Below, one piece after another: positions 1-17,537 of a DNA stretch of 64,000 nt; within the stretch, counting starts at the first letter, position 1, and each line of letters opens with the position of its first letter. A model generated the notes under the pieces. That model had not been told where the DNA came from and did no database searches. It saw only the letters and a program-made list of their open reading frames with translations. The stretch lies in NCBI RefSeq assembly GCF_003818135.1, contig NZ_RPOH01000030.1, positions 62,001 to 126,000 of the forward strand, in the 5' to 3' direction. The stretch comes from Buttiauxella warmboldiae. GTDB taxonomy: Bacteria; Pseudomonadota; Gammaproteobacteria; Enterobacterales; Enterobacteriaceae. Position numbers and translations under genes: made by a program.

Positions 1-1
1 C

Positions 2-1102: not shown

Positions 1103-1125
1103 CTGGGCGCCTTTAGAGCGCCCGG
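1103..1125 (+). promoter_or_regulatory. Intercistronic stem-loop between mdcE and mdcF
   Basis: GGGCGC (1105-1110) and GCGCCC (1118-1123) form a perfect 6-bp stem with a 7-base loop, extendable by two pairs to 1103/1125. No T run follows, so it looks less like a terminator than like an RNA-stabilising or partly attenuating hairpin. It separates the enzyme subunit genes from the transporter gene. Function inferred. Confidence 0.45.
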
Positions 1126-1198
1126 TAAAAATACATCGTCTGAAAATACTCACCATCGCACCGGTGCTGGAATTCTTTTTTTAACTACAGGTGAAGTT

Positions 1199-2158: not shown

Positions 2159-2161
2159 ATC

Positions 2162-2776: not shown

Positions 2777-2778
2777 GC

Positions 2779-3687
2779 ATGAAAATTCTCTTCACTTTCC
2801 CCGGACAGGGAACGCAGCGTGCAGGTATGCTGCGGACGTTACCGCAAGATAGCGATGTTATGGCGCGTGTTCGCGCGGTGTTAGGCGCTGAAGCCGACGA
2901 TCTGGATACCGAAGAAGCATTGAAGCATACCCGTGCCGTTCAGCTGTGCCTGCTGATTGCCGGAGTGGCCTGTGCGCAGGAGCTTGAGCGTAATGGGGTC
3001 GTACCCGACATGGTGTGCGGGTTATCCATCGGCGCATTTCCTGCGGCGGTTGTGGCGGGGGCGCTAAGCTTTGAAGATGCGCTGCGCCTGGTGACATTGC
3101 GCGGTGATTTAATGGAGCAGGCGTATCCGCAAGGTTACGGCTTAACCGCGATTACCGGACTGCAGCTCAATCAGGTCGAGAGCCTGGTGGAAGGCAGCGG
3201 AACCTATATCGCCAATATTAATGCCGAGCAGCAAATTGTGATTGCCGGAAGGGATGAGGACATGGCGCAAGTCGCCCGGCGTGCGCTGGCAAGCGGGGCG
3301 CAGAAAGCCAAACAGCTGGCGGTTAGCGTGCCATCGCACTGTGCACTACTGGCCGAACCGGCGCGAAAACTGCAACAGGCGTTTGCCGATGTGACGCTGG
3401 CTCGCCCGCGCTGTACTTATCTCAGCGGCAGCACCGCTCGCGTGGCCTGGCAACCTGAGAACATTGCCGAAGATTTAGCGCTGAATATGTCGCGTACCGT
3501 GCGCTGGCGTGATGCGATGGTTGCCGCCAATGAACGCGAGGTGCGCCTGGCAATCGAGATGCCGCCGGGTAGCGTCCTGACAGGACTCACGCGCCAGGCG
3601 TTCCGCGAAGGCGAAATGGTTTGCGCGGAAAATAACAGCGTAGCGCTGATTCAACGCCTGGCCGAGCGCGTTAAAGCGGCGCGTTAG
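2779..3687 (+). CDS. mdcH: Malonate decarboxylase epsilon subunit (malonyl-CoA:ACP transacylase)
   Basis: 302 residues. MdcH primes the enzyme by transferring malonyl from malonyl-CoA to the ACP subunit, as in FabD. The N-terminal F-P-G-Q-G-T-Q-R motif, the nucleophile elbow G-L-S-I-G-A-F (Ser about residue 88) and the V-P-S-H-C segment with the catalytic His are visible. The ATG at 2779 follows an AAGGGATA ribosome site; an in-frame GTG at 2758 inside mdcG is less likely. The 3' end overlaps the end of convergent mdcR by 17 bases. Confidence 0.93.
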   Translation: MKILFTFPGQGTQRAGMLRTLPQDSDVMARVRAVLGAEADDLDTEEALKHTRAVQLCLLIAGVACAQELERNGVVPDMVCGLSIGAFPAAVVAGALSFEDALRLVTLRGDLMEQAYPQGYGLTAITGLQLNQVESLVEGSGTYIANINAEQQIVIAGRDEDMAQVARRALASGAQKAKQLAVSVPSHCALLAEPARKLQQAFADVTLARPRCTYLSGSTARVAWQPENIAEDLALNMSRTVRWRDAMVAANEREVRLAIEMPPGSVLTGLTRQAFREGEMVCAENNSVALIQRLAERVKAAR

Positions 3688-4609
3688 GCTTATCAATAAA
3701 CGAACGGGCGTACATACGCCCTTCGGCGGCCAGAGCCAAAAGGTTGGGGTCGAGTTCGCGGTTGCGGGCAAAGACAATCGCGATGGATTGCTGCATTTGA
3801 TACGGCTCGGCAAGTTTCAGCATTTGCACTGAGTTTTCATACACTTTTTTCATGCGTCCCGGCATTAACGACAATCCCACACCCGCCTGCACCAGGCTCA
3901 GCATCGAGAAAATATCATTCACCCGGGTGACAATTTCCGGTTCAAACCCGGCGATATGAAATGCTTCCTGGAACCCGTTATAGGTCGCAAATCCTTCCGC
4001 TAACGAAACAAACTTCTGGTTATGGTAATCACGAAGATCGGCTAACTTGCTGGTATCAAGCGGGAAGGAGCCGGAAGCGGCGAGAAAAATATCATCCTGG
4101 AACAAAGGCAGCACTTCGAAGCGGCTGCGATCTATTTCGCTTTCTGAAATAGAGATCAGAATGGCGTCCAGCACGCCATCTTCGAGCATATTTAGCAGCA
4201 TCTGGTTGGAGCCCATGGTGAGATCCATTTCCAGCTCCGGGCGGCGCAGTTTCATCCCCATAATCAGGCGCGGTACGGTTTCAAGCGTCAACGAATAGAG
4301 GGTGCCAATCCGCAGCCGGCCTTGCCCAACCCCCGCGGCCTGGCGGGTTTCTTCGAGGCCTCGCGCCATTAAGGCGACAGCTTCTTTGCTGTGTTCAAGC
4401 AGCGTTAAGGCCGCCGGCAGCGGCACCAGATTACGCCCTTTATGAATAAATAGCGGGCAGCGAACGCCTTCTTCAAGCGTATGCAGCGCCCGGTGGACGC
4501 TGACGCCGCTGATCCCCAGCGCTTCGGCGGTGCGGGCGATGTTTCCTTTCTCCATAAACGACAGAAAGATTTCAAGTTTACGGAAAGTGATCTCTGCATC
4601 TATTTTCAT
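3671..4609 (-). CDS. mdcR: LysR-type regulator of malonate utilisation
   Basis: 312 residues. N-terminal winged HTH (residues about 8-66, with ...GNIARTAEALGISGVSVHRAL...) and a C-terminal periplasmic-binding-like effector domain. In Klebsiella MdcR activates the mdc operon in response to malonate. Here it is convergent to mdcH (17-base overlap of 3' ends) and divergent from the TRAP transporter at 4894, so it is well placed to control that transporter as well. Gene symbol by context and family. Confidence 0.85.
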   Translation of the reverse strand: MKIDAEITFRKLEIFLSFMEKGNIARTAEALGISGVSVHRALHTLEEGVRCPLFIHKGRNLVPLPAALTLLEHSKEAVALMARGLEETRQAAGVGQGRLRIGTLYSLTLETVPRLIMGMKLRRPELEMDLTMGSNQMLLNMLEDGVLDAILISISESEIDRSRFEVLPLFQDDIFLAASGSFPLDTSKLADLRDYHNQKFVSLAEGFATYNGFQEAFHIAGFEPEIVTRVNDIFSMLSLVQAGVGLSLMPGRMKKVYENSVQMLKLAEPYQMQQSIAIVFARNRELDPNLLALAAEGRMYARSFIDKPNAPL

Positions 4610-4893
4610 CGATTATTTGGTTCTGCCCACCCGGTAAGTTTCCCATAAAGTACCTTAAAACGGCTCCATCTTCACCAGCTGAAACGGTTTAAGGCCGGTC
4701 AGTTTTTCGCTAAACCGTAAAGAAAAGTCAGTTTTAAGCCCCTTTTTCAGTGCGATTCTGAGATCTAAATTGCAAAATGAATCAAAACTTCGATTTACAT
4801 GAAATATTGTTTCATTTTTGATTTGTTCGATGCGTAAATGCTTCCGAAACGTAAAGAGTACCACTCAGAACTCATGGATAAGGGACTTTAAGG
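4610..4893. promoter_or_regulatory. Divergent control region mdcR / TRAP transporter
   Basis: 284 bases, AT-rich. An inverted repeat ATGAAA-N5-TTTCAT lies at 4799-4815, about 80 bases before the dctP-like start, and is a candidate regulator operator. A GGGACTTTAAGG ribosome region precedes the 4894 start. No unambiguous -10/-35 pair was fixed. That MdcR binds here is inference. Confidence 0.4.
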
Positions 4894-5907
4894 ATGCTGC
4901 ATTTGAAACCTGTTTTGCCAAAAATTTCGCTGATTGCTACAGCCGTTGCGGCGACAATTTTATTGAGCGGATGTGGCGATGACGCTGCTCCAACGGGCAC
5001 CGTAACGCTGAAAACCGCGTTTAACCAATCTGAAAACAACCCACAATACAAAGCGTTAGTCTCTTTCAGCGATAAGCTGGAGTCCGCGACTAACGGTCGT
5101 TACAAATTAGAAATCCACCCGAATGAGCTGTTGGGCGACCAGCGGGCCTCGCTTGAACTGGTTCAGTCTGGCGCGATTCAAATGGCCGTGGTGGCTAACC
5201 CACTGGTCGAGAACTTTAATAAAAACTTCTCGGTCCTGGCGATGCCGTATGTCTACGACAACCCTGAGCATCAGCGCAAAGTGTTTACTTCCGGCGCGCT
5301 TGATAGCCTGTTTGCCTCCACCAAAGGCACCGGTTTTGAAGTGATCACCGCCTATACCGCTGGCGCACGCAGCGTGTACACCAAAGGCGCTGCGGTCACT
5401 AGCCCGGCGAATATGCAGGGTAAAAAGATCCGCGTGATGCAGTCCGACACCATGATCAAAATGTTGAGCTGCATGGGCGGGACCGGCGTACCTATGGGGC
5501 AGGGTGAGGTCTATTCTGCCATTCAGCAGGGGGTACTGGACGGTGCCGAAAATAACGAAATTACTTACGCTGACCTCAAGCAGTACGAAGTGGCGCCGTA
5601 TTTCTCTGCCACCCGTCATGTGATGGTTGCCGACCTGTTAGTGGCGAATGAAAACTTCCTCGCCAAAATGGATGAAGGCGATCGCGAGCTGTTCCGTAAA
5701 CTGGCTAAAGAGAGCACTCAGACCCAGTTTGAACTGTGGGACAAGGCGCTTGACGGCGCACGTCAAACCGCCAAAGACAATGGCGCGACCTTCACTGAAG
5801 TGGATATCAAACCATTCCAGGAACGCTGTAAGCCGCTGCAGTCCGCCATGTTAACCACGCCGGAACAAAAAGCGCTGTACGAAACAATTCGTGAGTTGGC
5901 CGAGTAA
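4894..5907 (+). CDS. TRAP transporter substrate-binding lipoprotein (DctP family)
   Basis: 337 residues. DctP-type proteins bind a carboxylate in the periplasm and hand it to the QM membrane subunits. The N-terminus is a lipoprotein signal: hydrophobic stretch then L-L-S-G-C with Cys at residue 27, followed by G-D-D. The segment G-K-K-I-R-V-M near residue 178 carries the conserved Arg that contacts the substrate carboxylate in the family. The gene is the first of a P-Q-M operon. A membrane-anchored P protein is less common than a soluble one in enterobacteria. Substrate unknown; malonate is likely from the neighbours. Confidence 0.85.
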   Translation: MLHLKPVLPKISLIATAVAATILLSGCGDDAAPTGTVTLKTAFNQSENNPQYKALVSFSDKLESATNGRYKLEIHPNELLGDQRASLELVQSGAIQMAVVANPLVENFNKNFSVLAMPYVYDNPEHQRKVFTSGALDSLFASTKGTGFEVITAYTAGARSVYTKGAAVTSPANMQGKKIRVMQSDTMIKMLSCMGGTGVPMGQGEVYSAIQQGVLDGAENNEITYADLKQYEVAPYFSATRHVMVADLLVANENFLAKMDEGDRELFRKLAKESTQTQFELWDKALDGARQTAKDNGATFTEVDIKPFQERCKPLQSAMLTTPEQKALYETIRELAE

Positions 5908-5922
5908 TACGGCTTAGTAGCC

Positions 5923-5942
5923 AGGGGACCTGCGGGTCCCCT
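5923..5942 (+). promoter_or_regulatory. Stem-loop between dctP-like and dctQ-like genes
   Basis: AGGGGACC (5923-5930) pairs with GGTCCCCT (5935-5942) around a TGCG loop. The stem ends two bases before the GGAG ribosome site of the next gene. Such hairpins after binding-protein genes usually stabilise the upstream mRNA and lower expression of the membrane subunits. Role inferred. Confidence 0.5.
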
Positions 5943-5954
5943 GTGGAGAAAATA

Positions 5955-6497
5955 ATGAAAGTGACCCAAACCGCCCCCTCCGCCGCCGTATCCAAATCTG
6001 ATATTTATTCGCATATTACCCGAGTGAAGCAGGCCGTTGATAAGGTGGCTTCCTGGCTGTGTATTTTGCTTGTGGGATTAATGACGCTGCTGGTGACCTG
6101 GCAGGTGGCTTCTCGTTATCTGTTTAATAGCCCAAGCGCCGTCAGCGAAGTGTTGGCGCGTTATCTGTTTATCTGGCTGGTATTGATTGGCGGGGCCTAT
6201 GTTTTTGGCCTGCGCGAGCATATGGCGATTACCTTTATGCGTGACAAAATGCCGCGTAAGTTGCGTATCTCCCTGGAAATTGTGGGCGAGCTTGCCACCT
6301 CGGTATTTGCCTTACTGGTGCTGACCATCGGTGGTTATATTGGGATGAGCCGCCAGATGGCGCAGCTCGATTCCGCGCTACAAATTCCCATCGGCATTAT
6401 CTACATTGCGATTCCACTCAGTGGTGCAATGACGCTGTTCTATTGCCTGTATAACCAATATGGGCTGTTCAGAAAGTTCTCTTCGAAACAAGATTGA
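5955..6497 (+). CDS. TRAP transporter small permease (DctQ family)
   Basis: 180 residues with four predicted membrane segments, matching the DctQ topology. It forms the complex with the M subunit. The ATG at 5955 has GGAG six bases upstream; a GTG at 5943 in the same frame would consume that ribosome site and is rejected. 12 bases separate it from the M gene. Confidence 0.88.
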   Translation: MKVTQTAPSAAVSKSDIYSHITRVKQAVDKVASWLCILLVGLMTLLVTWQVASRYLFNSPSAVSEVLARYLFIWLVLIGGAYVFGLREHMAITFMRDKMPRKLRISLEIVGELATSVFALLVLTIGGYIGMSRQMAQLDSALQIPIGIIYIAIPLSGAMTLFYCLYNQYGLFRKFSSKQD

Positions 6498-6509
6498 TTA
6501 GGTGTCGAT

Positions 6510-7817
6510 ATGGATATAGCAATTATTGTAGCGCTGGTCATGTTTAGCGGGGTGTTTATTTTACTGCTGACAGGTGCGCCAATCAGTATCAGCATCGGGA
6601 TTTCATCCTTTGCTGCGATGTTACTTATTTTACCTTTCGACGGGGCGATCTTAACCTCTGCCCAGCGTGTTTTTGTTGGCCTGGACTCCTTTGCATTATT
6701 AGCCATCCCGTTCTTTATTCTGGCGGGGAATTTAATGAACAATGGCGGGATAGCCATTCGTTTAATTAACTGCGCAAAAATGATCAGTAATTTTTTGCCG
6801 GGCCCGCTGGCGCAGACCAACGTGGTTGCCAATATGCTGTTTGGCTCCATCAGCGGTTCTGGTGTGGCGTCTGCGGCGGCTGTCGGCGGCATTATGTCCC
6901 CGATTCAGAAGAAGGAAAATTACGATCCGGCGTTTAGCGCCGCGGTAAATATCGCTTCTGCGCCAACGGGAATGCTGATCCCTCCAAGCAATTCACTGAT
7001 TGTCTACGCAACCGTTGCGGGTAGCGTCTCTATCTCCGCGCTGTTTATGGCCGGTTACGTACCGGGCATTCTGTGGGGGCTGGGCGTGATGCTGGTTGCT
7101 GGTTTCATTGCCAAACGTCGCGGCTATGTGGCTGACCGTTCGGCCAATAAAGGCCAGACGCTGCGTATCCTGTTTGATGCGGTGCCAAGCCTGATGATGA
7201 TTGTCGTGGTTATCGGCGGCATTCTTGGCGGCATATTTACCGCTACTGAAGCATCGGCGATTGCCGTGGTTTATTCGCTGGTGCTCGGCATTATTTATCG
7301 CAATATTAAACTGGAAGATTTGCCGAAGATATTCCTCGCTACCGCGAAAATGACGGCGATTGTGATTTTCATGCTGGCGGCGTCTTCTATTATGTCGTGG
7401 GTCATGGCTTTCACTAAAATCCCTGCGTTGATTGCCTCTGGGTTACTTTCAGCAACCGACAGCTTTATCATTATTTTGCTGATTATGAACCTGGTGCTGC
7501 TGCTGGTGGGTACCTTTATGGACCCCACGCCTGCGGTATTAATCTTCACCCCAATTTTCCTGCCAATCTGTATGCAATTCGGTATGGATCCGGTGCACTT
7601 CGGTATCATGATGGTATTTAACCTGTCACTCGGCACCATTACGCCGCCGGTTGGGCCAATACTGTTTACCGGCTGTAAAGTCGGGGATATTAAGATCGAG
7701 CGCGTCATCAAACCATTGCTGCCATTCTTTGCGGTAATTGCAATTGTGCTGATGATGGTGACCTATTTACCGGCTGTCACCATGGCGCTGCCACAGAGCA
7801 TGGGGCTGGTAAAGTAA
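6510..7817 (+). CDS. TRAP transporter large permease (DctM family)
   Basis: 435 residues, about twelve membrane segments, full length for the family. It is the sodium-coupled transport subunit of the DctPQM system. The conserved G-S-I-S-G-S-G-V-A-S stretch and P-P-S-N-S-L-I near residues 113-170, and the T-I-T-P-P-V-G-P loop near 378, are DctM signatures. Last gene of the TRAP operon; a REP-like repeat pair follows. Confidence 0.92.
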   Translation: MDIAIIVALVMFSGVFILLLTGAPISISIGISSFAAMLLILPFDGAILTSAQRVFVGLDSFALLAIPFFILAGNLMNNGGIAIRLINCAKMISNFLPGPLAQTNVVANMLFGSISGSGVASAAAVGGIMSPIQKKENYDPAFSAAVNIASAPTGMLIPPSNSLIVYATVAGSVSISALFMAGYVPGILWGLGVMLVAGFIAKRRGYVADRSANKGQTLRILFDAVPSLMMIVVVIGGILGGIFTATEASAIAVVYSLVLGIIYRNIKLEDLPKIFLATAKMTAIVIFMLAASSIMSWVMAFTKIPALIASGLLSATDSFIIILLIMNLVLLLVGTFMDPTPAVLIFTPIFLPICMQFGMDPVHFGIMMVFNLSLGTITPPVGPILFTGCKVGDIKIERVIKPLLPFFAVIAIVLMMVTYLPAVTMALPQSMGLVK

Positions 7818-7824
7818 GCCCTCT

Positions 7825-7915
7825 CCATTCGGATATCGCTACGCTAATCCGACCGACCCGTTACAGATAGTTTTGTGGCGGGTATTTCGTCGGTCGGGTA
7901 AGTGAAGCGACACCA
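7825..7915. repeat. REP-like palindromic pair (BIME)
   Basis: CGGATATCGCTACGCTAATC (from about 7829) followed by CGACC resembles one REP unit. GGTCGGGTAAGTGAAGCGAC (about 7892-7912) resembles a degenerate unit in the opposite orientation. It sits just after an operon end, where REP elements usually lie. Recognised by eye, so the boundaries are approximate. Confidence 0.5.
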
Positions 7916-8194
7916 GTCTTGCCTGATCCACCCATAAGCCTTTCCAGTATTTCCCCCAAAACATCCCCTGGCTCACAAAGTTGCTCAAAAACTCTCACTG
8001 AGAACTCTCACTTAAGCATTGCTAATGCGTGACTGTAATCACACTAAACCAGCCAATCATTACGATTCCGCCCTTTTTTGTGGCGCAAATCACTATTGAA
8101 GCTGCGATTTCCACTTCAAAGTGGAAAACAACTCGCTACAAACCTTTAACCCTGCCCGATACATTAAAAACCTGACAGCAGAGAGGTACGTAGT
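7916..8194 (+). promoter_or_regulatory. Promoter region of the SFCGS/DUF4310 operon with a CRP-like site
   Basis: Within the 377-base gap after the TRAP operon. CGTGA-CTGTAA-TCACA at 8028-8043 differs from the CRP consensus TGTGA-N6-TCACA at one position. A TACGAT at 8061-8066 is a possible -10 about 30 bases downstream of the site centre. A near sigma-54-like spacing (TGG at 8122, GC at 8135) is weak and not claimed. GAGAGG at 8181-8186 is the ribosome site of the first gene. Catabolite control is inferred. Confidence 0.5.
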
Positions 8195-8530
8195 GTGAAT
8201 GACGGATCGGTAATGGGTAATGAAGCCGGGAATACCGGGGAAATGCAATTCACGGAACAAGTGTTGGCGTTTATCAATACGCTGCTGAAGAACAGAAGCA
8301 TCACGCCGAATGCGGTGCAGGAAAAAATGCTGAGATCCCATGTTCGTGCTATGGCCCATCGATCGCTGACAGGTGAATCGTTGCCAGACGTTGAAGAGAG
8401 TTTGTTTGAGGAGATCTCTGCTGACTCGCTGGCGATGGCGAAAGAAGTGGTGGAACAGTTTGGCAATTTACCGGTTGAAGAAGCCTGGTTGCTGTCAGTG
8501 CATTTCGAAGTGGCGAAAGACAATCTTTGA
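8195..8530 (+). CDS. Stand-alone PRD-domain protein (EF_0829-like)
   Basis: 111 residues: essentially one PTS regulation domain without a DNA- or RNA-binding domain. Candidate phosphorylatable histidines are H49 and H55 (R-S-H-V-R-A-M-A-H-R) and H103 (L-S-V-H-F-E). From memory, small PRD proteins of this kind mark a rare conserved cluster first noted in Enterococcus faecalis and Aeromonas. It starts with GTG at 8195 behind GAGAGG; an ATG at 8213 is possible. It may sense PTS phosphorylation state or act as a subunit of the transporter encoded downstream. Function not established. Confidence 0.75.
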   Translation: MNDGSVMGNEAGNTGEMQFTEQVLAFINTLLKNRSITPNAVQEKMLRSHVRAMAHRSLTGESLPDVEESLFEEISADSLAMAKEVVEQFGNLPVEEAWLLSVHFEVAKDNL

Positions 8531-8547
8531 GCAATAAGGAGAAGCAC

Positions 8548-8910
8548 ATGGAGCAAATTACCGTAGTGATTGGCGATCGTCTGGGTAAAGGCCAGAAAGT
8601 GGCCGCAGGAGTTGAAAAAGCAGGTGGCCGTGCCGTGGTGATTCCTGGTGTTGCTGCGGATATGAAACTGGGCGACGTCATGAAAGCAGAAAATGCCGCC
8701 TTCGGTATCTCCTTCTGCGGCAGCGGCGGTGCTGGTGCAATCACTGCACAGACTAAACATGGCTACAAAGCGAAGTACGGTATGCGTTCAGTGGATGAAG
8801 GAGTGACGGCAATCAACGAAGGCAATAATGTGCTGGGTTTCGGTTTTATGGATAAAGAAGAACTGGGCGAACGCCTGGTGCAGGCCTGGGCCAGGAAGTA
8901 CGGCAAGTGA
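8548..8910 (+). CDS. Glycine-rich SFCGS-family protein
   Basis: 120 residues, soluble. The name-giving motif S-F-C-G-S-G-G-A-G-A is at residues 55-64 with Cys57 at the start of a glycine loop. The N-terminal V-V-I-G-D-R-L-G-K-G-Q-K-V looks like the first strand and helix of a small alpha/beta domain. Start ATG 8548 with AAGGAG six bases upstream. A single Cys at the head of a loop in a small alpha/beta protein beside membrane proteins is reminiscent of PTS EIIB domains; this is inference, not homology shown here. No experimental function known to me. Confidence 0.8.
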   Translation: MEQITVVIGDRLGKGQKVAAGVEKAGGRAVVIPGVAADMKLGDVMKAENAAFGISFCGSGGAGAITAQTKHGYKAKYGMRSVDEGVTAINEGNNVLGFGFMDKEELGERLVQAWARKYGK

Positions 8911-9209
8911 ATATGAAAGAACACTTTTCCGAAACAGTGAGAGTGAAGGGACGAGGCGATACCAAAGCTAAAGCCTTTGCTGACGCCCTGAACCATGTTC
9001 AGAGTTCGGTGCTGAAATCGTCTCCCCACATTTTACTGCGCATTGAACCACAGGATGTGCAGGTTGTTCAGGCGTGGGTGCAGGTCAAGAAAGAGGCGTT
9101 TTTGTTCTTCTTCCTGAAGCGTGAAAAACAAATGTTCAGCGTCGAGCTGGATGTTGCAGTCAATGTTACGGCAATCAACATGAACAAAGTCGATTTCATT
9201 CCCCAATAA
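8907..9209 (+). CDS. DUF4312 family protein
   Basis: 100 residues, soluble, with mixed charged and hydrophobic segments (...KKEAFLFFFLKREKQ... near residue 70). Member of the small family that always travels with SFCGS, DUF4311 and DUF4310 genes. The GTG at 8907 overlaps the previous stop and has AGGAAG eight bases upstream; the ATG at 8913 is an alternative. Probably a cytoplasmic partner of the membrane proteins that follow. Function unknown. Confidence 0.75.
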   Translation: MNMKEHFSETVRVKGRGDTKAKAFADALNHVQSSVLKSSPHILLRIEPQDVQVVQAWVQVKKEAFLFFFLKREKQMFSVELDVAVNVTAINMNKVDFIPQ

Positions 9210-9232
9210 AATCACACAGCAAGGACAGACAT

Positions 9233-10009
9233 ATGTTCTTAATTATATTAATAAAATCGCTAATCATCGGCGGTCTGGTGGGTGTTGGAGTTGGTGCCGG
9301 GGCTGCTCGTATGTTTCATGCGCCGACGACTCAGGGGATGGGCGCTTTCCGTACTCTCGGTGAACTTAACTCCTGCGAAGGCGATCCGGCTTCACACTTC
9401 TCATTTGGATTAGGTTTCTTCTTCAACGCCTGGGCTTCCTCTGTTGCAGCAGGTGCGTTCACCCAGGACGTTGACCATCGCATTATCCCAAACTGGGGGG
9501 CGGCTGCCTTGATGGTGAAAAACCGTAACGTTGCCGACACCTTGCATGACCCGAAAAAGATGGCCATCGCCTGCGGCATCATCGGCATGATTGTGGTGGC
9601 CTTCCTGAACACCACGGCTTCCGCCGTTCCCGCAGCATTGCAGGTGACTGCCGTAAAAGTTCTGGTTCCTGCGGCTAACCTGCTGGTTAACACCGTGATG
9701 CCAGTTATTTTCTGGCTGGCGGCAATTGATGCTGGTAAGAAATCGGGATTCTGGGCGACGATTTTCGGTGGCTGTGCACAACTGATTATGGGCAATGCCG
9801 TACCAGGCCTGGTGCTCGGTATCCTGATTGGTAAAGGTGTGGAAGAGAGCGGCTGGAACCACGTCACCAAAGTCATGATGGTCGCGATTATTGCGCTGTT
9901 TGTCCTGAGTGGCTTTTTCCGTGGCTTCGATATCAAGATGATCGAATCTTTCCATCTGACCGTGCCGAACTGGTTAGATCTGATTCATAACTCGCTGAGT
10001 GGAAAATAA
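9233..10009 (+). CDS. DUF4311 family membrane protein
   Basis: 258 residues with about six or seven hydrophobic segments and many glycines (G-G-L-V-G-V-G-V-G-A-G-A-A near the N-terminus). AAGGA precedes the ATG. Together with the next gene it makes a two-protein membrane module of unknown mechanism, here proposed as the translocation path of a sugar-acid transporter. The next gene starts 11 bases after its stop. Confidence 0.78.
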   Translation: MFLIILIKSLIIGGLVGVGVGAGAARMFHAPTTQGMGAFRTLGELNSCEGDPASHFSFGLGFFFNAWASSVAAGAFTQDVDHRIIPNWGAAALMVKNRNVADTLHDPKKMAIACGIIGMIVVAFLNTTASAVPAALQVTAVKVLVPAANLLVNTVMPVIFWLAAIDAGKKSGFWATIFGGCAQLIMGNAVPGLVLGILIGKGVEESGWNHVTKVMMVAIIALFVLSGFFRGFDIKMIESFHLTVPNWLDLIHNSLSGK

Positions 10010-10020
10010 GGAAGCCTGTG

Positions 10021-10662
10021 ATGGAAGAGAATAAAGGTTTCTGGTACGCCGACTGGTCTTTCCCGATTTTTGTTGGCCTGCTTTCTTCCGGCGTGTTCGC
10101 CGGAACACACATGTATTACCTGTACGGCATCGGGGCTTTCAACGAAGTAGCGTTTGTCTCCATGCTACGTGCCGGGATGGATACCGGGGTATATGGTGCG
10201 GTTGCGGCATTTGGCGCCAGTTTCCTGTTTGCCCGCATCATCGAAGGCTCGTTGGTCGGGATTCTGGATATCGGTGGCGCGATTCAAACCGGTGTCGGGC
10301 TGGGCGTTCCTGCATTGTTGCTTGGCGCAGGCATAATCTTCCCGGTGGCAAACTTCACCGCTTCTCTGGTGACGGGATTAATGATTGGCCTGGCGATTGG
10401 CTACGTGATCATTCTTGCGCGTAAGTTCACTATCAACCAGAGCGATTCAACCTACGGCGCTGATGTGATGATGGGGGCGGGTAACGCTTCTGGCCGCTTC
10501 CTTGGCCCCTTGATCATCCTGAGCGCGATGACCGCATCGATTCCAATTGGTATCGGCTCGCTGATTGGTTCACTGCTGTTTTACCTGTGGAGCAAACCGA
10601 TTACCGGTGGTGCCATTCTTGGTGCGATGATCTTTGGAGCATTCTTCCCGATTGCTTTGTAG
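10021..10662 (+). CDS. DUF4310 family membrane protein
   Basis: 213 residues, about six hydrophobic segments. Start ATG 10021 with AAGGAAG overlapping the previous stop codon; a GTG at 10018 is possible. Like DUF4311 it is found only in this kind of cluster as far as I know. The gene order SFCGS - DUF4312 - DUF4311 - DUF4310 followed by catabolic enzymes suggests a transporter made of two soluble and two membrane proteins. Confidence 0.78.
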   Translation: MEENKGFWYADWSFPIFVGLLSSGVFAGTHMYYLYGIGAFNEVAFVSMLRAGMDTGVYGAVAAFGASFLFARIIEGSLVGILDIGGAIQTGVGLGVPALLLGAGIIFPVANFTASLVTGLMIGLAIGYVIILARKFTINQSDSTYGADVMMGAGNASGRFLGPLIILSAMTASIPIGIGSLIGSLLFYLWSKPITGGAILGAMIFGAFFPIAL

Positions 10663-10709
10663 CTCTTTTGGGCGGATGGAGCATTCCATCCGCCAGTCAG
10701 GAGAAAACC

Positions 10710-11843
10710 ATGTACGACTTAATCCTGCGCAACGCCCGCCTGGTGGACGATACCGTTATCGACATCGCGCTCAAGGACGGCAAAATTGCGGCACTGGGCG
10801 AAGTAACGGGCGAAACCCGCGCACAACGCCAGCTTAACGGTGAGTATTACGTCAGCGCTGGTTGGATTGATTCCCACGTTCACTGCTACCCAAAATCCCC
10901 GATTTATCACGATGAACCCGACAGTATCGGTATTCATACGGGCGTGACGACGGTGGTGGATGCCGGAAGCACCGGTGCGGATGATATTGACGAGTTTTAC
11001 GCGTTGACTCGCAGTGCGCAGACCGATGTTTATGCGTTGCTCAATATCTCCAGAGTGGGGTTGATTACGCAAAATGAACTGTCAGATATGGCGAATATCG
11101 ACAAAGTTGCGGCGCGTGATGCGGTCAAGCGCTACCCAGATTTTATCGTCGGTATTAAAGCACGTATGAGCAGCAGCGTAGTGGGGGCCAATGGCATCAA
11201 ACCGTTGGCCTATGCCAAAGCAATCCAGCGTGAAAACGGTGACCTGCCGCTGATGGTGCACATTGGCAATAACCCGCCAGACCTTGATGAAATCGCCGAT
11301 TTACTGAGCAGTGGCGATATCATTACCCACTGTTACAACGGCAAACCGAACCGCATTCTGACCCCAGCGGGTGAGCTCCGCGCCTCCATTGTCAGCGCCA
11401 TACAACGTGGTGTGCGCCTTGATGTCGGCCACGGTACTGCCAGCTTCAGCTTTGAAGTGGCGAAAATCGCCATCGGTAAAGGGATTCTGCCGCACACTAT
11501 CAGCTCCGATATTTATTGCCGCAACCGCATTAACGGCCCGGTACACAGCCTCGGCGTGGTGATGTCTAAATTCCTCTCTCTCGGTATGTCTCTGCCGCAG
11601 GTGATTGATTGTGTGACCATACATGCCGCCGATGGCCTGCGCCTGGCAAACAAAGGACGTTTGTCAGTTGGGCTTGATGGCGACCTGACGATTTTCGCCA
11701 AACGCCGCCGGCTGACGGTATTTACCGACTCCGAAAATCAGACACTCCAGGGTGAACAACAGCTGGTGGCACTTGCTGCAGTCCGCGCCGGGAAGTGGTT
11801 TTTGACCGAAAAAGGGAAAGAAGAACATGCCTTCGATTTATGA
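10710..11843 (+). CDS. Amidohydrolase/deacetylase-family metallohydrolase (EF_0837-like)
   Basis: 377 residues. TIM-barrel amidohydrolase: metal motif D-S-H-V-H near residues 55-59, a likely carboxylated bridging Lys in G-I-K-A-R-M-S near 151, further ligands in H-I-G-N, H-C-Y-N-G and the catalytic Asp in S-S-D. Start ATG 10710 with CAGGAG upstream; the frame extends back to 10587 inside DUF4310 but lacks a ribosome site there. Related enzymes remove acyl groups from hydroxy or amino acids. Here it likely deacylates or opens an amide of the imported sugar acid. The end overlaps the next gene by 17 bases. Confidence 0.85.
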   Translation: MYDLILRNARLVDDTVIDIALKDGKIAALGEVTGETRAQRQLNGEYYVSAGWIDSHVHCYPKSPIYHDEPDSIGIHTGVTTVVDAGSTGADDIDEFYALTRSAQTDVYALLNISRVGLITQNELSDMANIDKVAARDAVKRYPDFIVGIKARMSSSVVGANGIKPLAYAKAIQRENGDLPLMVHIGNNPPDLDEIADLLSSGDIITHCYNGKPNRILTPAGELRASIVSAIQRGVRLDVGHGTASFSFEVAKIAIGKGILPHTISSDIYCRNRINGPVHSLGVVMSKFLSLGMSLPQVIDCVTIHAADGLRLANKGRLSVGLDGDLTIFAKRRRLTVFTDSENQTLQGEQQLVALAAVRAGKWFLTEKGKEEHAFDL

Positions 11844-12945
11844 AAAATACAATTTAAAACAAGTCATTAATGCATCAGGCCGTATGACCGCACTCGGTGT
11901 TTCTACCCCGCGTCCGGAAGTAGTGGACGCCGTAATGAACGGCATGAATCACTATTTTGAAATGAAAGAGCTGGTGAACAAAACCGGGGAATACATCGCA
12001 AAACTGCTGGATGTGGAAGCGGCGACGGTAGTGTCCTGCGCTTCTGCCGGTATTGCGCAATCGGTGGCGGCGGTGCTGGTGAAAGACAACGCGTGGCTAA
12101 TTGAAAACCTGCATAACACCCCGCTTGAGAATAACGAAATCGTGTTGCCAAAAGGCCACAACGTGAACTTCGGCGCGCCGGTGGGCAGCATGGTGTATCT
12201 CGGCGGCGGCAAAGTGATTGAAGCCGGTTACGCCAACGAATGTTCTGCCGATCAACTGGCTGCGGCGATTTCCCCGCGCACGGCGGCCATTCTGTATATC
12301 AAATCTCACCACTGCGTGCAGAAAAGCATGCTTAGCGTTGAGCAGGCGGCGGTCGTGGCCCGCAAGCATAACCTGCCATTAATTGTTGATGCTGCGGCCG
12401 AAGAAGATTTGCAGTGTTACTACCGCGCCGGTGCGGATCTGGTGATTTACAGCGGCGCAAAAGCGATTGAAGGGCCAACCAGCGGTCTGGTGATCGGCAA
12501 AGCGCAGTATATCGAGTGGGTGAAACTGCAAACCGGCGGCATTGGACGCGCCATGAAAGTCGGTAAAGAAGGCATTCTTGGCCTGACCTGTGCCATCGAA
12601 CATTATCTGAGTGCGGAAAAAGAGAGCGGTGCGCAGATGGTGGAAAAAATGACACCGTTTATCGCTAACCTCAACACGCTCGAGGGCATCAGCGCCCGCG
12701 TGGTGTGGGATGCAGCCGGACGCGATATCGCGCGCACTGAAATTAAGTTCGATGAAGCGGCGATTGGCGTCAGCACCGTCGAGTTGGTGAGCGCGCTGAA
12801 ACAGGGCGAATATGCGATTTTCTTCCGTGGCTACAAAGCCAACGAAGGGATTATCGAAGCCGACGTGCGCAGCGTCAGCCCGCAGCAGCTAGAGATTATT
12901 TATCACAGCATTAAGGCATTGGTCAGCAAGGAGAAACAGGCATGA
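11827..12945 (+). CDS. DgaE-like PLP-dependent ammonia-lyase
   Basis: 372 residues, SelA-related fold-type I PLP enzyme. The PLP lysine is probably K212 in Y-S-G-A-K-A-I-E-G-P. The characterised relative, Salmonella DgaE, removes ammonia from D-glucosaminate-6-phosphate to give 2-keto-3-deoxygluconate-6-phosphate. It overlaps the amidohydrolase by 17 bases and the aldolase by 4 (ATGA), so the three enzymes are coupled. The exact substrate is not known; a 6-phospho amino-sugar acid is the likely class. Confidence 0.85.
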   Translation: MPSIYEKYNLKQVINASGRMTALGVSTPRPEVVDAVMNGMNHYFEMKELVNKTGEYIAKLLDVEAATVVSCASAGIAQSVAAVLVKDNAWLIENLHNTPLENNEIVLPKGHNVNFGAPVGSMVYLGGGKVIEAGYANECSADQLAAAISPRTAAILYIKSHHCVQKSMLSVEQAAVVARKHNLPLIVDAAAEEDLQCYYRAGADLVIYSGAKAIEGPTSGLVIGKAQYIEWVKLQTGGIGRAMKVGKEGILGLTCAIEHYLSAEKESGAQMVEKMTPFIANLNTLEGISARVVWDAAGRDIARTEIKFDEAAIGVSTVELVSALKQGEYAIFFRGYKANEGIIEADVRSVSPQQLEIIYHSIKALVSKEKQA

Positions 12946-13682
12946 AATTGACCCCGAATTTTTATCGTGACCGTGTTTGCCTGAACGTGCTGGCTGGTTC
13001 GAAAGAGAATGCGAAAGCCATTTATGACGCTGCCGAAGGGCATGTGCTGGTCGGAGTGCTTTCCAGAAACTACCCGGATGTTGCCAGTGCTGTCGCTGAT
13101 ATGCGCGAATATGCGTCGTTGATCGACAATGCGCTTTCTGTTGGGCTGGGCGCAGGCGACCCGAACCAGTCGGCAATGGTCAGTGAAATCTCCCGCCAGG
13201 TACAGCCGCAGCATGTAAACCAGGTATTTACCGGCGTGGGAACCAGCCGTGCGCTGCTTGGGCAAAATGAAAGTGTGGTTAACGGCCTGGTTTCCCCAAC
13301 TGGCACGGTCGGCATGGTGAAAATTTCCACCGGCCCGTTGAGTTCCGGCGCGCCAGATGGAGTCGTACCTGTCGAAACAGCCATTAATCTGCTGAAAGAT
13401 ATGGGCGGTAGCTCAATCAAATACTTCCCGATGGGCGGTCTGCAATGCCGTGAGGAGTATCAGGCGGTAGCCAAAGCCTGTGCGCAGCATGATTTCTGGC
13501 TGGAGCCAACCGGGGGTATCGACCTTGAGAATTACGAAGAGATCCTGAAGATCGCGCTGGATGCGGGAGTGAGTAAAGTTATTCCGCATATTTACAGCTC
13601 GATCATTGATAAAGCGAGCGGCAATACGCGTCCGCAAGATGTGCGCACTTTGCTGGAAATAACGAAGAACCTGGTCGGGTAA
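12942..13682 (+). CDS. DgaF/DagF-like 2-dehydro-3-deoxy-phosphogluconate aldolase
   Basis: 246 residues. KDPG-aldolase-like TIM-barrel with the Schiff-base lysine expected in S-S-I-K-Y-F-P-M-G-G near residue 160. Expected reaction: 2-keto-3-deoxy-6-phosphogluconate to pyruvate and glyceraldehyde-3-phosphate. Last enzyme gene of the operon. A 249-base gap then leads to the regulator. Confidence 0.85.
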   Translation: MKLTPNFYRDRVCLNVLAGSKENAKAIYDAAEGHVLVGVLSRNYPDVASAVADMREYASLIDNALSVGLGAGDPNQSAMVSEISRQVQPQHVNQVFTGVGTSRALLGQNESVVNGLVSPTGTVGMVKISTGPLSSGAPDGVVPVETAINLLKDMGGSSIKYFPMGGLQCREEYQAVAKACAQHDFWLEPTGGIDLENYEEILKIALDAGVSKVIPHIYSSIIDKASGNTRPQDVRTLLEITKNLVG

Positions 13683-13931
13683 AACTACGCTCATCCCGGC
13701 TCTCTTCCTGAAAAGGAGAAAGCTGGGTGAACCATCAGCAGGGAGAGAGGGCAGGCTGGGGTCGACTAATTTTAATAACAATCAGGAGGTTCAGTACCTG
13801 CTGCAGGTTATCTGGTTATCGCTTCACTTACTGTTCACAGGGAATCAGCCGCAAAAGATTCTGGTATCTGCTAAAGATAAAGAGTTGTTGTAATGGACGC
13901 CTGCGCGCCCGTTTAATCAAAGGAAACGGCA
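13683..13931 (+). promoter_or_regulatory. Leader region before the PRD regulator
   Basis: 249 bases without a convincing gene. An imperfect stem, CCCGGCT (about 13694-13700) against AGCTGGG (about 13721-13727), follows the aldolase stop and may be a weak terminator or an RNA target. AAAGGAAAC just before 13932 is the ribosome site of the regulator. A possible 80-codon frame from 13727 has no family-like features and is not called. Confidence 0.3.
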
Positions 13932-15842
13932 GTGAGATTTCCAAACCAACGTCTGGCCCAGCTTTTTGACATGTTGCAAAACGAGGCGCTGCCCCAGGAT
14001 GAACTGGCGCGGCGTTTATCTGTTTCTACCCGAACGGTACGTACCGACATCACGGCTTTAAATGTGTTGATGATCGGGCATGGCGCACAATTTGTACTTA
14101 ATCGTGGTACGGGTTATCAACTTAATATTGTCGATTCTGTACGTTACCAGTCTCTTCTGGAGCAACCCTCACACCAGCTACGCATACCGCGTACTCCCCC
14201 GGAACGCGTACACTATTTGATGGTGTGTTTTCTGACTTCGGCATTCTCTTTAAAACTCGAAGATCTGGCTGAAGAGTGGTTTGTCAGCCGGGCCACTTTG
14301 CAAAGCGACATGGCAGAGGTGCGCGACTGGCTGGCGCACTACCACCTGACAATTGAAACGCGCCCGCGTCACGGCATGAAATTATTCGGCAGTGAGATGT
14401 CGGTTCGCGCCTGTCTGACCGATCTGCTCTGGAAACTGATGCAGGAAGAAGGTGAAAACCCGCAGCTGACAGAAGAAGTACTTAACGCCGGCGTGCCGGA
14501 ACAACTGGCGGCAGAACTGCATAACTGTTTTGTCCGTTGCCGCATTCGTCTGACTGATGAGGGTGAACAGTTTATCCGTTTATATTGCTCTGTTGCGGTG
14601 CGGAGGATTAGCGAAGGTTATCCGTTGCCGGAATTTAGCGCTGGCGATGTTGATGAAGCGGTATGTGAAGCCGCGCGGCAAATTACGCTGCTGCTACAGA
14701 CGCTGGCTGGTAAACCGCTTACTGAGGCGGAAGAGCAGTGGTTGCAGGTTCATATTGCCTCGCGTCAGGTGCAAGAGGTGGCAGCCAGTGCGATTAGTGC
14801 CGATGACGACGAAGCGCTGGTGAACTACATCCTTGGCTTTATCAATAGTAACTATAACTACAACTTGTTGACGGATAAGCAGTTGTACGCGGATTTACTT
14901 ACGCATATCAAAACGATGATCACCCGTGTGCGCTACCAGATAAACATTCCCAACCCGCTACTTAGCAATATCAAACAGCACTACCCGATGGCCTATGACA
15001 TGACGCTGGCGGCGGTGTCGAGCTGGGGAAAGTACACGCCTTATGTTATCAGCGAAAATGAAATTGGTTTTCTGGTGCTGCATATTGGCGTCGGACTTGA
15101 ACGGCACTACAACATTGGTTATCAGCGCCATCCGCGCGTGCTGCTGGTTTGTGATACCGGTAATTCCACGGTACGCATGATTCAGGCGATGCTGCTGCGT
15201 AAATATCCACAGATTGAAGTCACGCGTATCATCTCGCTACGTGACTATGAACAGCTTGAAAATATTGAAGAAGATTTTGTTATTTCCACGGTGCGATTGA
15301 CGGATAAAGCCAAACCCACCGTGGTGGTGGCTCCATTCCCGACCGAGTATCAATTCGAACAGCTCGGCAAGCTGGTGCTGGTGGATCGTACGCGTCCGTA
15401 CATGCTGGAAAAATTTTTTGATGCCAACCACTTCCGCATAATTGATAAGCCCATCACCCAGCAGGCGTTATTCAGCGCTTTGTGTCAGCAGCTTGAGCAG
15501 GAAGGTTATGTCGGGGCTGATTTCTATCCGTCGGTGGTGGAACGTGAGGCCATTGTCAGCACCGTGCTAGGGGAGGGGATTGCGCTACCTCACTCGTTAG
15601 GGCTGATGGCGAATAAAACCGTGGTGTATACCGTGCTGGCGCCCCAGGGCATCAGTTGGGGTGATGAAACGGCGTACGTTATCTTCCTGCTGGCGATCGG
15701 CAAAAGTGAGTACGAAGAGGCGATGGCGATTTACGATCTGTTTGTCACTTTTCTGCGCGAAAGGGCGATGCCGCGTTTACGGGATAGCCGTAATTTTGAT
15801 GAATTTAAAGCGGTGGCAATGGATTGTTTGAGTCGGTTTTAA
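13932..15842 (+). CDS. Transcriptional regulator with HTH, two PRDs, EIIB and EIIA domains
   Basis: 636 residues. Order: DeoR-like HTH (about 4-60), second Mga-like HTH (about 92-150), PRD1 (about 185-285), PRD2 (about 292-398), EIIB with C407 in V-C-D-T-G-N-S-T, EIIA with H554 in G-E-G-I-A-L-P-H-S. This is the MtlR/LicR architecture of PTS-controlled activators. PRD1 keeps H274 but has Ser-Val where the other His is expected; PRD2 keeps H325 and H384. GTG start with AAAGGAAA upstream. Likely activates the 8195-13682 operon when unphosphorylated at some sites; this is inference from the architecture. Confidence 0.88.
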   Translation: MRFPNQRLAQLFDMLQNEALPQDELARRLSVSTRTVRTDITALNVLMIGHGAQFVLNRGTGYQLNIVDSVRYQSLLEQPSHQLRIPRTPPERVHYLMVCFLTSAFSLKLEDLAEEWFVSRATLQSDMAEVRDWLAHYHLTIETRPRHGMKLFGSEMSVRACLTDLLWKLMQEEGENPQLTEEVLNAGVPEQLAAELHNCFVRCRIRLTDEGEQFIRLYCSVAVRRISEGYPLPEFSAGDVDEAVCEAARQITLLLQTLAGKPLTEAEEQWLQVHIASRQVQEVAASAISADDDEALVNYILGFINSNYNYNLLTDKQLYADLLTHIKTMITRVRYQINIPNPLLSNIKQHYPMAYDMTLAAVSSWGKYTPYVISENEIGFLVLHIGVGLERHYNIGYQRHPRVLLVCDTGNSTVRMIQAMLLRKYPQIEVTRIISLRDYEQLENIEEDFVISTVRLTDKAKPTVVVAPFPTEYQFEQLGKLVLVDRTRPYMLEKFFDANHFRIIDKPITQQALFSALCQQLEQEGYVGADFYPSVVEREAIVSTVLGEGIALPHSLGLMANKTVVYTVLAPQGISWGDETAYVIFLLAIGKSEYEEAMAIYDLFVTFLRERAMPRLRDSRNFDEFKAVAMDCLSRF

Positions 15843-15853
15843 GGGGAACGTTA

Positions 15854-15920
15854 TGGTGGATGACGCTTCGCTTATCGACCCTACAGACATTAACGGGCGG
15901 ATAAGCAGCGTCATCCGCGC
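15854..15920. repeat. REP/BIME element
   Basis: GGTGGATGACGCTTCGCTTA at about 15855-15874 and, inverted, GGGCGGATAAGC...AGCGTCATCCGC at about 15895-15919. Two REP units in opposite orientation in the 80-base gap between convergent genes, a standard position. It can act as a bidirectional transcription and decay barrier. Confidence 0.75.
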
Positions 15921-15922
15921 GG

Positions 15923-16498
15923 TTACTTCAGAAGAGTAAACGCGGTGGTCACATGCTTCACGCCACTGACCCGGCTGGCAATATCTGCCGCGGCTTTGGC
16001 TTCTCTGTCAGTCAGTAAACCTAACAGGAACACTTCGCCATTTTCGGTCGTGACTTTCACATTCGTCGATTTCACCCGATCGCTTGTCAACAACTGCGAA
16101 CGTACTTTGGTCGTTATCCAGGTGTCATTTGATGCCGTACCCAGGCCAATTGGTGCCATATTACGGATTTCGTTGTACACCTCGGTGGTGCCCTCAACGC
16201 CCAATGCAATTTGTTTGGCACGGGATGCAAGTTCGCTATCAGGCGACTGGCCCACCAGCAGCACTTTGCCCTGATAGGCGCTGACGTTAATACGCGCCTC
16301 TTTCTTGAGCTGTGCGTCTTTGTTCAGTGCGCTATTGATGCGCAACTCCAGCGTACTATCATCAACCTGCGTACCCACTGAGCGTGGATCCGTTGCCGTT
16401 TTAGTGGCAACTGCTGCGGTACCCACGACCGCCGCCGCAACACAACCTTGTAGCAGCAACGCGGTAATAAGGACTGCAAGTGGCTTATATGCCTTCAT
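15923..16498 (-). CDS. dolP: Outer-membrane lipoprotein DolP (YraP), two BON domains
   Basis: 191 residues. Lipobox L-L-L-Q-G-C with Cys19. Two BON domains follow (about 47-115 and 125-190). DolP supports outer-membrane integrity and BAM function, localises to the division site in E. coli and is in the sigma-E regulon there. It lies 9 bases downstream of diaA in the conserved yraN-diaA-dolP order. The signal sequence and length match the family. Confidence 0.95.
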   Translation of the reverse strand: MKAYKPLAVLITALLLQGCVAAAVVGTAAVATKTATDPRSVGTQVDDSTLELRINSALNKDAQLKKEARINVSAYQGKVLLVGQSPDSELASRAKQIALGVEGTTEVYNEIRNMAPIGLGTASNDTWITTKVRSQLLTSDRVKSTNVKVTTENGEVFLLGLLTDREAKAAADIASRVSGVKHVTTAFTLLK

Positions 16499-16507
16499 CT
16501 GTGCTCC

Positions 16508-17098
16508 TTAATCGTCCTGGTGAGGGAATAACGTATTATCAATCAGATCGCATAAGCAGTTTACCGTCAGCATATGCATTTCCTGAATGCGTGCGCTGCG
16601 GTGAGAAGGGATGCGAATTTCTACATCCTGCGGCCCCAGTAGCCCGGCCAGTTCCCCGCCATCATAGCCAGTCAATGCCACGATAGTCATATCGCGCGTC
16701 ACCGCGGCTTCTACCGCTTTGACAATATCACGGCTGTTGCCACGGGTCGAAATAGCGAGCAAAACATCACCGGTTTGGCCAAGCGCACGTACTTGTTTGG
16801 CATACACTTCTTCGTGTAAACGATCGTTGGCGATCGCGGTTAAGACCACGTTATCAGCGTTAAGTGCAATGGCAGGTAAACTTGGGCGCTCAGTTTCAAA
16901 GCGGTTGATCATGCTGGCGGCAAAATGCTGGGCGTTGGCCGCTGAGGTGCCGTTACCGCAGCAAAGGATTTTATTGCCGTTGAGCAGCGACTGAACCAGC
17001 GTCATTGCGCCACGGGAGATAGCATCTGGCAGAGCTTCCGCTGCGGCAATCTGGGTTTGAATACTTTCCGTGAAGCAGACTTTGATTCTTTCGAGCAC
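16508..17098 (-). CDS. diaA: DnaA initiator-associating protein DiaA (SIS domain)
   Basis: 196 residues, full length for DiaA. SIS phosphosugar-binding fold with the loop [10 protein letters not shown] near residues 47-56. DiaA tetramers bind DnaA and promote ordered initiation complexes at oriC. Sits between yraN and dolP as in E. coli. Confidence 0.95.
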
Positions 17099-17117
17099 GT
17101 TAGTTTACCTGGTTACT

Positions 17118-17537
17118 TTAAACATCTGCGGTGAACGCGTTGGTTAACCACTCTATTTCATTGCCGGTGAAGGCTAACACATCGAAACGGCAATCCACAG
17201 TATCAAAACTTCCCGATGTGCGGGCTAGCCAATATGAAGCCGCTTGCAAGAGCTTATGTTGCTTGCGACGCGTCACGCTTGTGGCCGCGTCACCGAAGAG
17301 ACTGGAGCGGCGATATCGTACTTCGATAAAAACGATAACGCCGCCGTGCTGCATGATGAGGTCGATTTCGCCGCCGCGAGAGTGGACGTTGGCGGCGATA
17401 AAACGCAGCCCTTTGCGTTCAAGAAAGCGGCGCGCTTCTGATTCATAGTGCGCGCCCGCCTGTTGACGACTCAGGAGGCGGGAACGATTTGACCCTGACT
17501 GAATTGCAGCCAATTTAATTTCCTGTTGATAACGCAA
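17118..17537 (-). CDS. yraN: UPF0102 family protein YraN (nuclease-like)
   Basis: 139 residues against about 131 in E. coli. Restriction-endonuclease-like core: G-G-E-I-D-L-I with the acidic pair and F-I-E-V-R-Y-R-R with the E-x-K-type position as Arg/Tyr as in the family. Biochemical role unknown. The chosen start overlaps the end of lpoA by 67 bases; a shorter start inside the overlap cannot be excluded. Confidence 0.9.

Follow-up and report, generated by a model that had tools for sequence, protein, structure and literature searches.

A nine-gene cluster of Enterobacterales proposed to take up and degrade an N-acetylated amino-sugar acid, with features that suggest coupling to the phosphotransferase system

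What does the nine-gene cluster at 8195–15842 of a 64,000-nucleotide stretch of Buttiauxella warmboldiae DNA (assembly GCF_003818135.1, contig NZ_RPOH01000030.1, positions 62,001–126,000; hereafter the window) take up, and where would its substrate acquire a phosphate? The genes all lie on the + strand in the order lone PRD protein, SFCGS, DUF4312, DUF4311, DUF4310, amidohydrolase, DgaE-like ammonia-lyase, KDGP aldolase and PRD/EIIB/EIIA regulator, and each matches its own family far above chance in Pfam and NCBIfam scans. A sequence-only reading had described nine co-directional, overlapping genes encoding two membrane and two small soluble proteins of no assigned function, three enzymes and no kinase, and this observation is confirmed, with no kinase found between the nine genes. 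The interpretation offered with it, that the four proteins of no assigned function form a phosphorylating transporter for an N-acyl amino-sugar acid, is partly supported. In the best-supported reading, the cluster works like an Enzyme II (EII) permease of the phosphoenolpyruvate (PEP)-dependent phosphotransferase system (PTS), and the sequences put a PTS-coupled permease at about even odds. The fuller proposal, to which we give slightly less than an even chance, is that the operon uses PEP-dependent phosphorylating uptake to import an N-acetylated 2-amino-2-deoxy-aldonic acid, with N-acetyl-D-glucosaminate (GlcNAc1A) the most likely one, and then breaks it down.

A phosphorylated substrate at the lyase step, as claimed earlier, is supported by the DgaE-family pyridoxal phosphate (PLP)-dependent ammonia-lyase (11827–12945), which passes the subfamily model TIGR01437 (2.4e-182, 605.7 bits). 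Manual docking in the Salmonella DgaE crystal structure put the phosphate of the substrate close to R301, R332 and R346 (available part of PMC9529869). The aligned residues of the window, R303, R334 and R348 (positions counted by hand), are invariant in 85/85 long loci, as are H162 and K212, the lysine of the SGAK motif, with H161 found in 83/85. These loci comprise 80 from species genomes and five from plasmid records; the 80 are the best of 498 relatives from a contig scan, all but one Enterobacterales by title, which leaves the family's diversity under-sampled. The counts are not numbers of independent events either, since the set includes near duplicates such as the two Bartonella plasmids and loci from several species of a single genus. 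Judged by the kept arginine cluster, a 6-phosphorylated 2-amino-aldonate is very probably the substrate of the lyase, though perhaps one that differs somewhat from the substrate of DgaE.

The amidohydrolase encoded just upstream (10710–11843; TIGR03583, EF_0837 family, 6.1e-168; nearest solved chains 8wzy and 2ics) is a candidate amino-sugar-acid N-deacetylase. Its presence suggests an N-acyl group and makes an N-acyl amino-sugar acid a reasonable substrate, as the sequence-only reading had it. The lyase is followed by a KDGP aldolase of the DgaF family (12942–13682; PF07071, 2.9e-110; NF047796, 395.6 bits, cut-off 300). LPMOs (lytic polysaccharide monooxygenases) release C1-oxidised chitin in which the end unit is GlcNAc1A (available part of PMC9537276), and GlcNAc1A, which chitin cut by LPMOs could supply, is the most likely substrate; isomers of it or acids with another acyl group are possible. 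Between aldolase and regulator, 45 of the 85 loci carry a lactonase-family gene, and a crude rule assigns a signal-like start to 36 of the 45 products; an exported lactonase fits the lactone of the acid as a form of the substrate. The window holds no lactonase gene. A lactonase remnant in the 249-nucleotide (nt) gap between aldolase and regulator (13683–13931) was considered and rejected, the best tblastn piece (4.9e-5) covering the end of the aldolase, within an upstream read-through of the query frame.

The link to the PTS that had been proposed for the cluster is supported by an HPr–Enzyme I (EI) fusion in Bartonella, by invariant PRD histidines and by an invariant SFCGS cysteine. In Bartonella sp. 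HY406 and HY761 the whole cluster lies on a 55-kb plasmid, with a ptsP-annotated gene of 671 residues 64 nt behind the regulator. In the HY406 product, which shows the motifs GLHARPA and GGATSH, an HPr domain and each of the three EI domains were found; its HY761 counterpart is 99.7% identical. The HY406 plasmid has 49 annotated genes, none of them named as a PTS permease, and the annotation lists no kinase. We take the Bartonella host to be without a usable sugar PTS, and the simplest reading of this gene neighbourhood would be that the cluster, dependent on EI and HPr, carried both into that host. Relatives of the fusion occur in 397 plasmid records, 191 of them over at least 80% of its length, and in each of three records inspected a ptsG gene for EIIBC lies beside or near the fusion. 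The two Bartonella plasmids also carry a doubled, inverted rep/par region (1–7085 in record L096, 274–7254 in L123) and a type VI secretion gene set adjoining the cluster.

Two regulators of PTS type had been read from the sequence. PRD domains are PTS-controlled regulatory domains, and their paired histidines are PTS phosphorylation sites. The large regulator (13932–15842) has HTH, Mga, PRD and PTS_EIIA_2 domain matches and an EIIB-like part assigned by reading the sequence; its residues H325, H384, C407 (in the EIIB-like part) and H554 are invariant in 84/84 rows (E. faecalis lies outside the alignment), and it therefore probably needs HPr. The lone PRD protein (8195–8530; TIGR03582, EF_0829 family, 127.5 bits) has no DNA-binding domain in the Pfam scan and no membrane window by hydropathy, and it immediately precedes SFCGS in 85/85 long loci. 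Its H49 and H103 are invariant in 86/86 rows, as is C57 of SFCGS, which provides phosphorylatable residues in cytoplasmic partners, a feature that is necessary, not sufficient, for a phosphate relay. On these residues the lone PRD protein, which could also be a PTS sensor, is a better candidate for an EIIA-like step than the four proteins of no assigned function.

SFCGS (8548–8910; PF14272, 4.5e-59; TIGR03577) is a candidate EIIB-like carrier, and Cys57 is the sole cysteine invariant in its 86 sequences. Its Pfam and NCBIfam scans gave weak RpiB/LacAB matches (E 0.02 and 0.0015), and a 22-sequence profile searched against all PDB chains returned three matches, namely E. coli RpiB at the top (E 0.17), a second RpiB and a nitrogenase. 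Profile–profile comparison (hhalign) with 11 RpiB/LacAB proteins gave a score of 38.5 (P 4.3e-6, probability 87%), compared with maxima of 20.9 over 200 column shuffles and 14.2 over 11 further profiles or single sequences. In this alignment Cys57 faces the isomerase cysteine, and a Cys-G-S/T-G motif is common to both. Conversely, the Pfam SFCGS model found one site in each of three of five RpiB/LacAB-bearing plasmid records (E 1.2e-5, 0.0011 and 0.011, each computed for one small record); the sites are annotated lacB, rpiB and RpiB/LacA/LacB genes, all score below the cut-off of the model, and the other two records gave no match. Taken together, these comparisons give good support to SFCGS being a shortened, remote relative of the RpiB/LacAB isomerases. 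With 120 residues against 141–176 in the 11 relatives, it is without their C-terminal stretch, presumably the phosphate-binding part, and ends at least 20 residues earlier. Before a conserved Asn it has Ile89, at a position which we take to be that of the catalytic histidine and which is His in five and Ser in four of the 11 relatives. Glucitol-type EIIB, guessed from its motif to be a relative of SFCGS, was dropped when profile comparison, with only two SrlE sequences, gave nothing. Separately, the source genome holds two glucitol-type PTS gene sets (L098 and L099), each with an EIIBC gene and, beside it, genes that read as EIIC-like, EIIA-like and oxidoreductase-like.

DUF4312 (8907–9209; PF14189, 6.4e-32; TIGR03578), a small protein, has no invariant His or Cys, and consequently the four proteins cannot all be classical phosphocarriers. 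No believable relation was found between DUF4312 and HPr, EIIA, EIIB or RpiB; a 15-column match to HPr (E 0.0026) was too short to be believed. DUF4311 (9233–10009; PF14188, 4.4e-121; TIGR03580) and DUF4310 (10018–10662; PF14187, 1.2e-105; TIGR03579) are hydrophobic by hydropathy and are candidate permease subunits, while SFCGS and DUF4312 have no membrane window, in agreement with the two membrane and two soluble proteins first described. No PTS domain was detected in any of the four at E up to 1 in Pfam or NCBIfam, which bears out the earlier remark that recognised EII domains are missing. No homology to the known EII families was thus found in these proteins, and the cluster is not to be filed as one. 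Profile comparisons of DUF4310 with SrlE and of DUF4311 with DUF4310 gave nothing. A weak match of DUF4311 elsewhere in the source genome (E 7.8e-5), in a protein that we take from its sequence to be DjlA, covers a Gly-rich membrane segment and was judged to be chance.

In the mechanism we propose, DUF4311 and DUF4310 would form the membrane channel, with DUF4312 as an accessory subunit, and the substrate would be phosphorylated at O6 on entry with PEP as donor, by a relay running from EI to HPr, the lone PRD protein (His49/His103), SFCGS (Cys57) and the substrate. The amidohydrolase would then, by its family, remove acetate, and the DgaE-type lyase, as suggested by its characterised homologue and conserved residues, would convert D-glucosaminate-6-phosphate to 2-keto-3-deoxygluconate-6-phosphate (KDG-6-P) and ammonia. 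The DgaF-type aldolase would, again from its family, yield pyruvate and glyceraldehyde-3-phosphate. The large regulator would sense the state of the PTS, and in many relatives a probably exported lactonase would first open the lactone.

Two known pathways place this proposal. The Salmonella Dga pathway (DgaABCD mannose-family PTS, DgaE and DgaF) shares with the window a DgaE-family lyase, a DgaF-family aldolase and, if the proposal holds, dependence on the PTS. The window differs in having no DgaABCD-type EII, with four proteins of no assigned function and a lone PRD protein in its place, in adding an amidohydrolase, which points to an acylated substrate, and in a DgaE homologue that scores 379 where the equivalog cut-off is 600. 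The ong pathway of Pseudoalteromonas, as described in the available part of PMC9537276, shares the proposed GlcNAc1A substrate, the sequence from deacetylation through deamination to KDG-6-P and the possible LPMO origin. There, the amidohydrolase OngB is of the D-aminoacylase-like subtype V, the PLP enzyme OngC is of fold type III, an SSS-family transporter handles uptake and KdgK phosphorylates late; the window, in contrast, has an EF_0837-type amidohydrolase, a SelA-like DgaE and a proposed early phosphorylation, and its enzymes fall outside the ong gene families as these are described in the publications. According to the same part of PMC9537276, the ong authors weighed and rejected a phosphorylate-first route for their strain; the present cluster looks like that route.

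A third comparison bears on the permease. The E. coli K-12 yhf operon (yhfS–yhfZ; 4936–12345 of locus L114) likewise holds a lone PRD protein (YhfY), a small RpiB-like cysteine protein (YhfU), a membrane protein (YhfT), a PLP enzyme and a hydrolase. YhfY matches TIGR03582 below its cut-off (E 1.6e-6), and in YhfU a C-N-T-G stretch lies opposite the RpiB cysteine (hhalign 27.0, E 6.5e-4; Pfam LacAB_rpiB, E 0.065). The two operons differ in that YhfT has no believable similarity to DUF4310 or DUF4311, YhfU gave no direct match to SFCGS and YhfY seems to be without the second PRD histidine (alignment extended by eye). The recurrence of one triad with unrelated membrane parts suggests a common principle, a PRD protein, an RpiB-like cysteine protein and a membrane protein. 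A new class of PTS permease, without kinship to the known EII families, may be considered, in which the place of EIIA is taken by a free PRD protein and that of EIIB by an RpiB-fold protein with one cysteine, DUF4311/DUF4310 being the translocator, with yhf (YhfY, YhfU and YhfT) as a second, separately built member; this is a tentative idea, which we regard as possible and somewhat doubtful. Homologues of yhfU, yhfT, php and yhfW are also present in the source genome (L116).

Were this so, one of the best-studied bacterial transport systems would gain a new type of permease, free-standing PRD proteins would be phosphate carriers and not mere sensors, and an isomerase fold would have been turned into a carrier. 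Many Enterobacterales and E. faecalis would be able to use monomers of oxidised chitin, or related acids, by a route distinct from the marine ong set (as far as the available part of PMC9537276 describes it), and four families without a function, together with part of the E. coli yhf operon, would become directly testable.

Several observations weigh against PTS-coupled uptake of GlcNAc1A. Opposite the carboxylate-side Arg226 of DgaE, Lys is found in 70/85 loci and Arg in 15/85, and the lyase scores 379.3 bits against the 600-bit cut-off of the equivalog model NF047797; this exchange and the low score together indicate that its substrate may differ from that of DgaE. The source genome has an LPMO_10 match that would fit a chitin-derived substrate, but it covers only positions 51–183 of 183. 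The ong pathway deacetylates GlcNAc1A without phosphorylation (available part of PMC9537276). The two near-identical Bartonella plasmids represent one event, the other hosts being uninformative on a need for EI and HPr, and their EI and HPr could serve the regulators only. In comparisons of thin profiles, SFCGS resembled neither glucitol EIIB nor the EIIB of the regulator, and the DUF4311 and DUF4310 profiles gave no EIIC match in the PDB. AlphaFold2 models of the two membrane proteins are of low confidence (mean predicted local distance difference test, pLDDT, 44.3 for DUF4311 and 50.2 for DUF4310) and speak neither for nor against an EIIC-like fold; the low confidence probably results from overly similar input sequences. 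DUF4311 is 90–99% identical to the copy in the window in 42 aligned Enterobacterales-like sequences and DUF4310 87–96% in 40.

The E. faecalis version of the cluster (NZ_CP143580.1) adds to these points. Behind its aldolase lies a PfkB protein, nearest to models of 2-keto-3-deoxygluconate (KDG) kinase type and below their cut-offs; with such an enzyme, E. faecalis would have no need to phosphorylate the substrate on entry. A kinase for the same substrate, encoded elsewhere and required, had been named at the outset as evidence against a phosphorylating transporter, and this has been found by half, in the E. faecalis version. Between DUF4310 and the amidohydrolase (14767–17502) lie genes for an EIIC of lactose/cellobiose type, a protein of 99 residues and a hydrolase of the MupG family, and the regulator of this version shows no EIIA domain. 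It may be, as pure inference, that E. faecalis imports oxidised chitobiose through the extra EIIC, frees the unphosphorylated acid and phosphorylates it later; in another reading the whole system works without phosphorylation. No PfkB relative was found at E 1e-5 in the other 84 long loci, so that E. faecalis alone has it (1/85), and genes related to its EIIC occur in 2/85. For flank families present in at least five loci, inspection by eye of one example per family, over its first 60 residues, showed no sugar kinase or EII gene. The E. faecalis record, of 747 kb and filed as a plasmid, holds usually chromosomal genes (murF, D-alanine ligase and udk).

These points lend themselves to three other explanations. 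Uptake may run through an ordinary secondary, ion-coupled permease, with the lone PRD protein and the regulator only sensing the state of HPr, the Bartonella fusion kept for the regulator, which would be inactive without it, and phosphate added by a kinase elsewhere or by a side activity. PRDs are known as regulatory domains under PTS control, and the regulator keeps its four phosphorylatable residues in every aligned row and so probably needs HPr. A characterised inner-membrane transporter of GlcNAc1A is, moreover, an SSS-family protein (available part of PMC9537276). We nevertheless consider an ion-coupled permease unlikely: a dedicated EI–HPr would be costly for a regulator alone, which could be lost instead; 84 of the 85 loci have no PfkB relative at E 1e-5, and no kinase was seen by eye in the common flank families; and the lone PRD protein shows no DNA-binding domain and sits directly before SFCGS in every long locus. 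A kinase acting late, with the substrate deacetylated and deaminated without phosphate and KDG then converted to KDG-6-P, is very improbable, even though ong uses KdgK after deamination (available part of PMC9537276), the PfkB protein of E. faecalis may do the same there and a housekeeping kdgK could serve in Enterobacterales. The phosphate-site arginines of DgaE are invariant in all 85 loci, E. faecalis included, and the Bartonella plasmid brings EI–HPr with no kinase annotated on it.

SFCGS, for its part, could be a true RpiB/LacAB-type isomerase or a sugar-phosphate-binding enzyme outside transport, which would leave DUF4310, DUF4311 and DUF4312 alone to transport the substrate. Its place in the RpiB/LacAB superfamily and the alignment of Cys57 with the isomerase cysteine favour this, and the histidine that we take to be catalytic is found in only 5/11 relatives, so that Ile89 leaves an enzymatic role possible. 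However, the proposed chemistry of deacetylation, ammonia loss and aldol cleavage needs no isomerisation step, and the protein ends where its relatives continue; an isomerase role thus appears quite improbable. A PTS-like permease with SFCGS as carrier remains the reading that we prefer.

PRD, SFCGS, DUF4312, DUF4311, DUF4310 and aldolase are present in 85/85 long loci, and the five-gene core from PRD to DUF4310 is therefore not a chance block. The amidohydrolase and the DgaE homologue are present in 84/85, the exception being Aeromonas caviae KAM479 (locus L097), where an internal deletion has fused the start of DUF4310 with part of the aldolase in one open reading frame at approximately 10639–11340; the regulator is present in 84/85, with the remaining contig (L016) ending at that point. 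The flanks vary: the pmbA/nrdG side (annotated in L015) is shared alone by 51 loci and the lipoprotein gene found after the cluster in the window (15923–16498) alone by 13, with 16 loci having both and five neither. The idea that the cluster occupies two separate chromosomal sites was dropped in view of these flank counts.

Hosts include Klebsiella, Enterobacter, Citrobacter, Pantoea, among many Enterobacterales, and E. faecalis. In a phylum sample the cluster occurs in 12/398 genomes, including the source genome, all of the same family, and a survey with the SFCGS family found it in 1/369 genomes, the source genome itself. Further surveys for distant hosts found 0/48 and 0/385 genomes (the latter class taken as Alphaproteobacteria); the SFCGS family also gave matches among control genomes, below its cut-off in 6/14 with E allowed up to 10 and, in the survey of 369, in 1/14 at E 0.001. 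Among 279 pattern matches in viral contigs there was no relative. A contig labelled Chryseobacterium (CACSKA010000007.1) holds an enterobacterial cluster with DUF4311 92% identical and is probably mislabelled or a mixed assembly.

The system had been called undescribed, which holds for function and not for the families: NCBI hypothetical-equivalog models (EF_0829 to EF_0839 from Enterococcus faecalis, AHA_3910 to AHA_3917 from Aeromonas) already cover seven of the nine genes and assign none a function. A search of one literature collection by DUF and locus names found no function and only passing remarks on EF0839. The called genes overlap by 4 nt (SFCGS/DUF4312), 17 nt (amidohydrolase/DgaE) and 4 nt (DgaE/DgaF); the preferred starts are ATG 8548 for SFCGS and ATG 10710 for the amidohydrolase, and the first overlap disappears if DUF4312 starts at ATG 8913. 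Just upstream on the same strand lie the genes of a TRAP (tripartite ATP-independent periplasmic) transporter, DctP, DctQ and DctM (4894–7817). DctM occurs in 7/85 long loci, all Buttiauxella, and the TRAP genes are thus excluded from the system.

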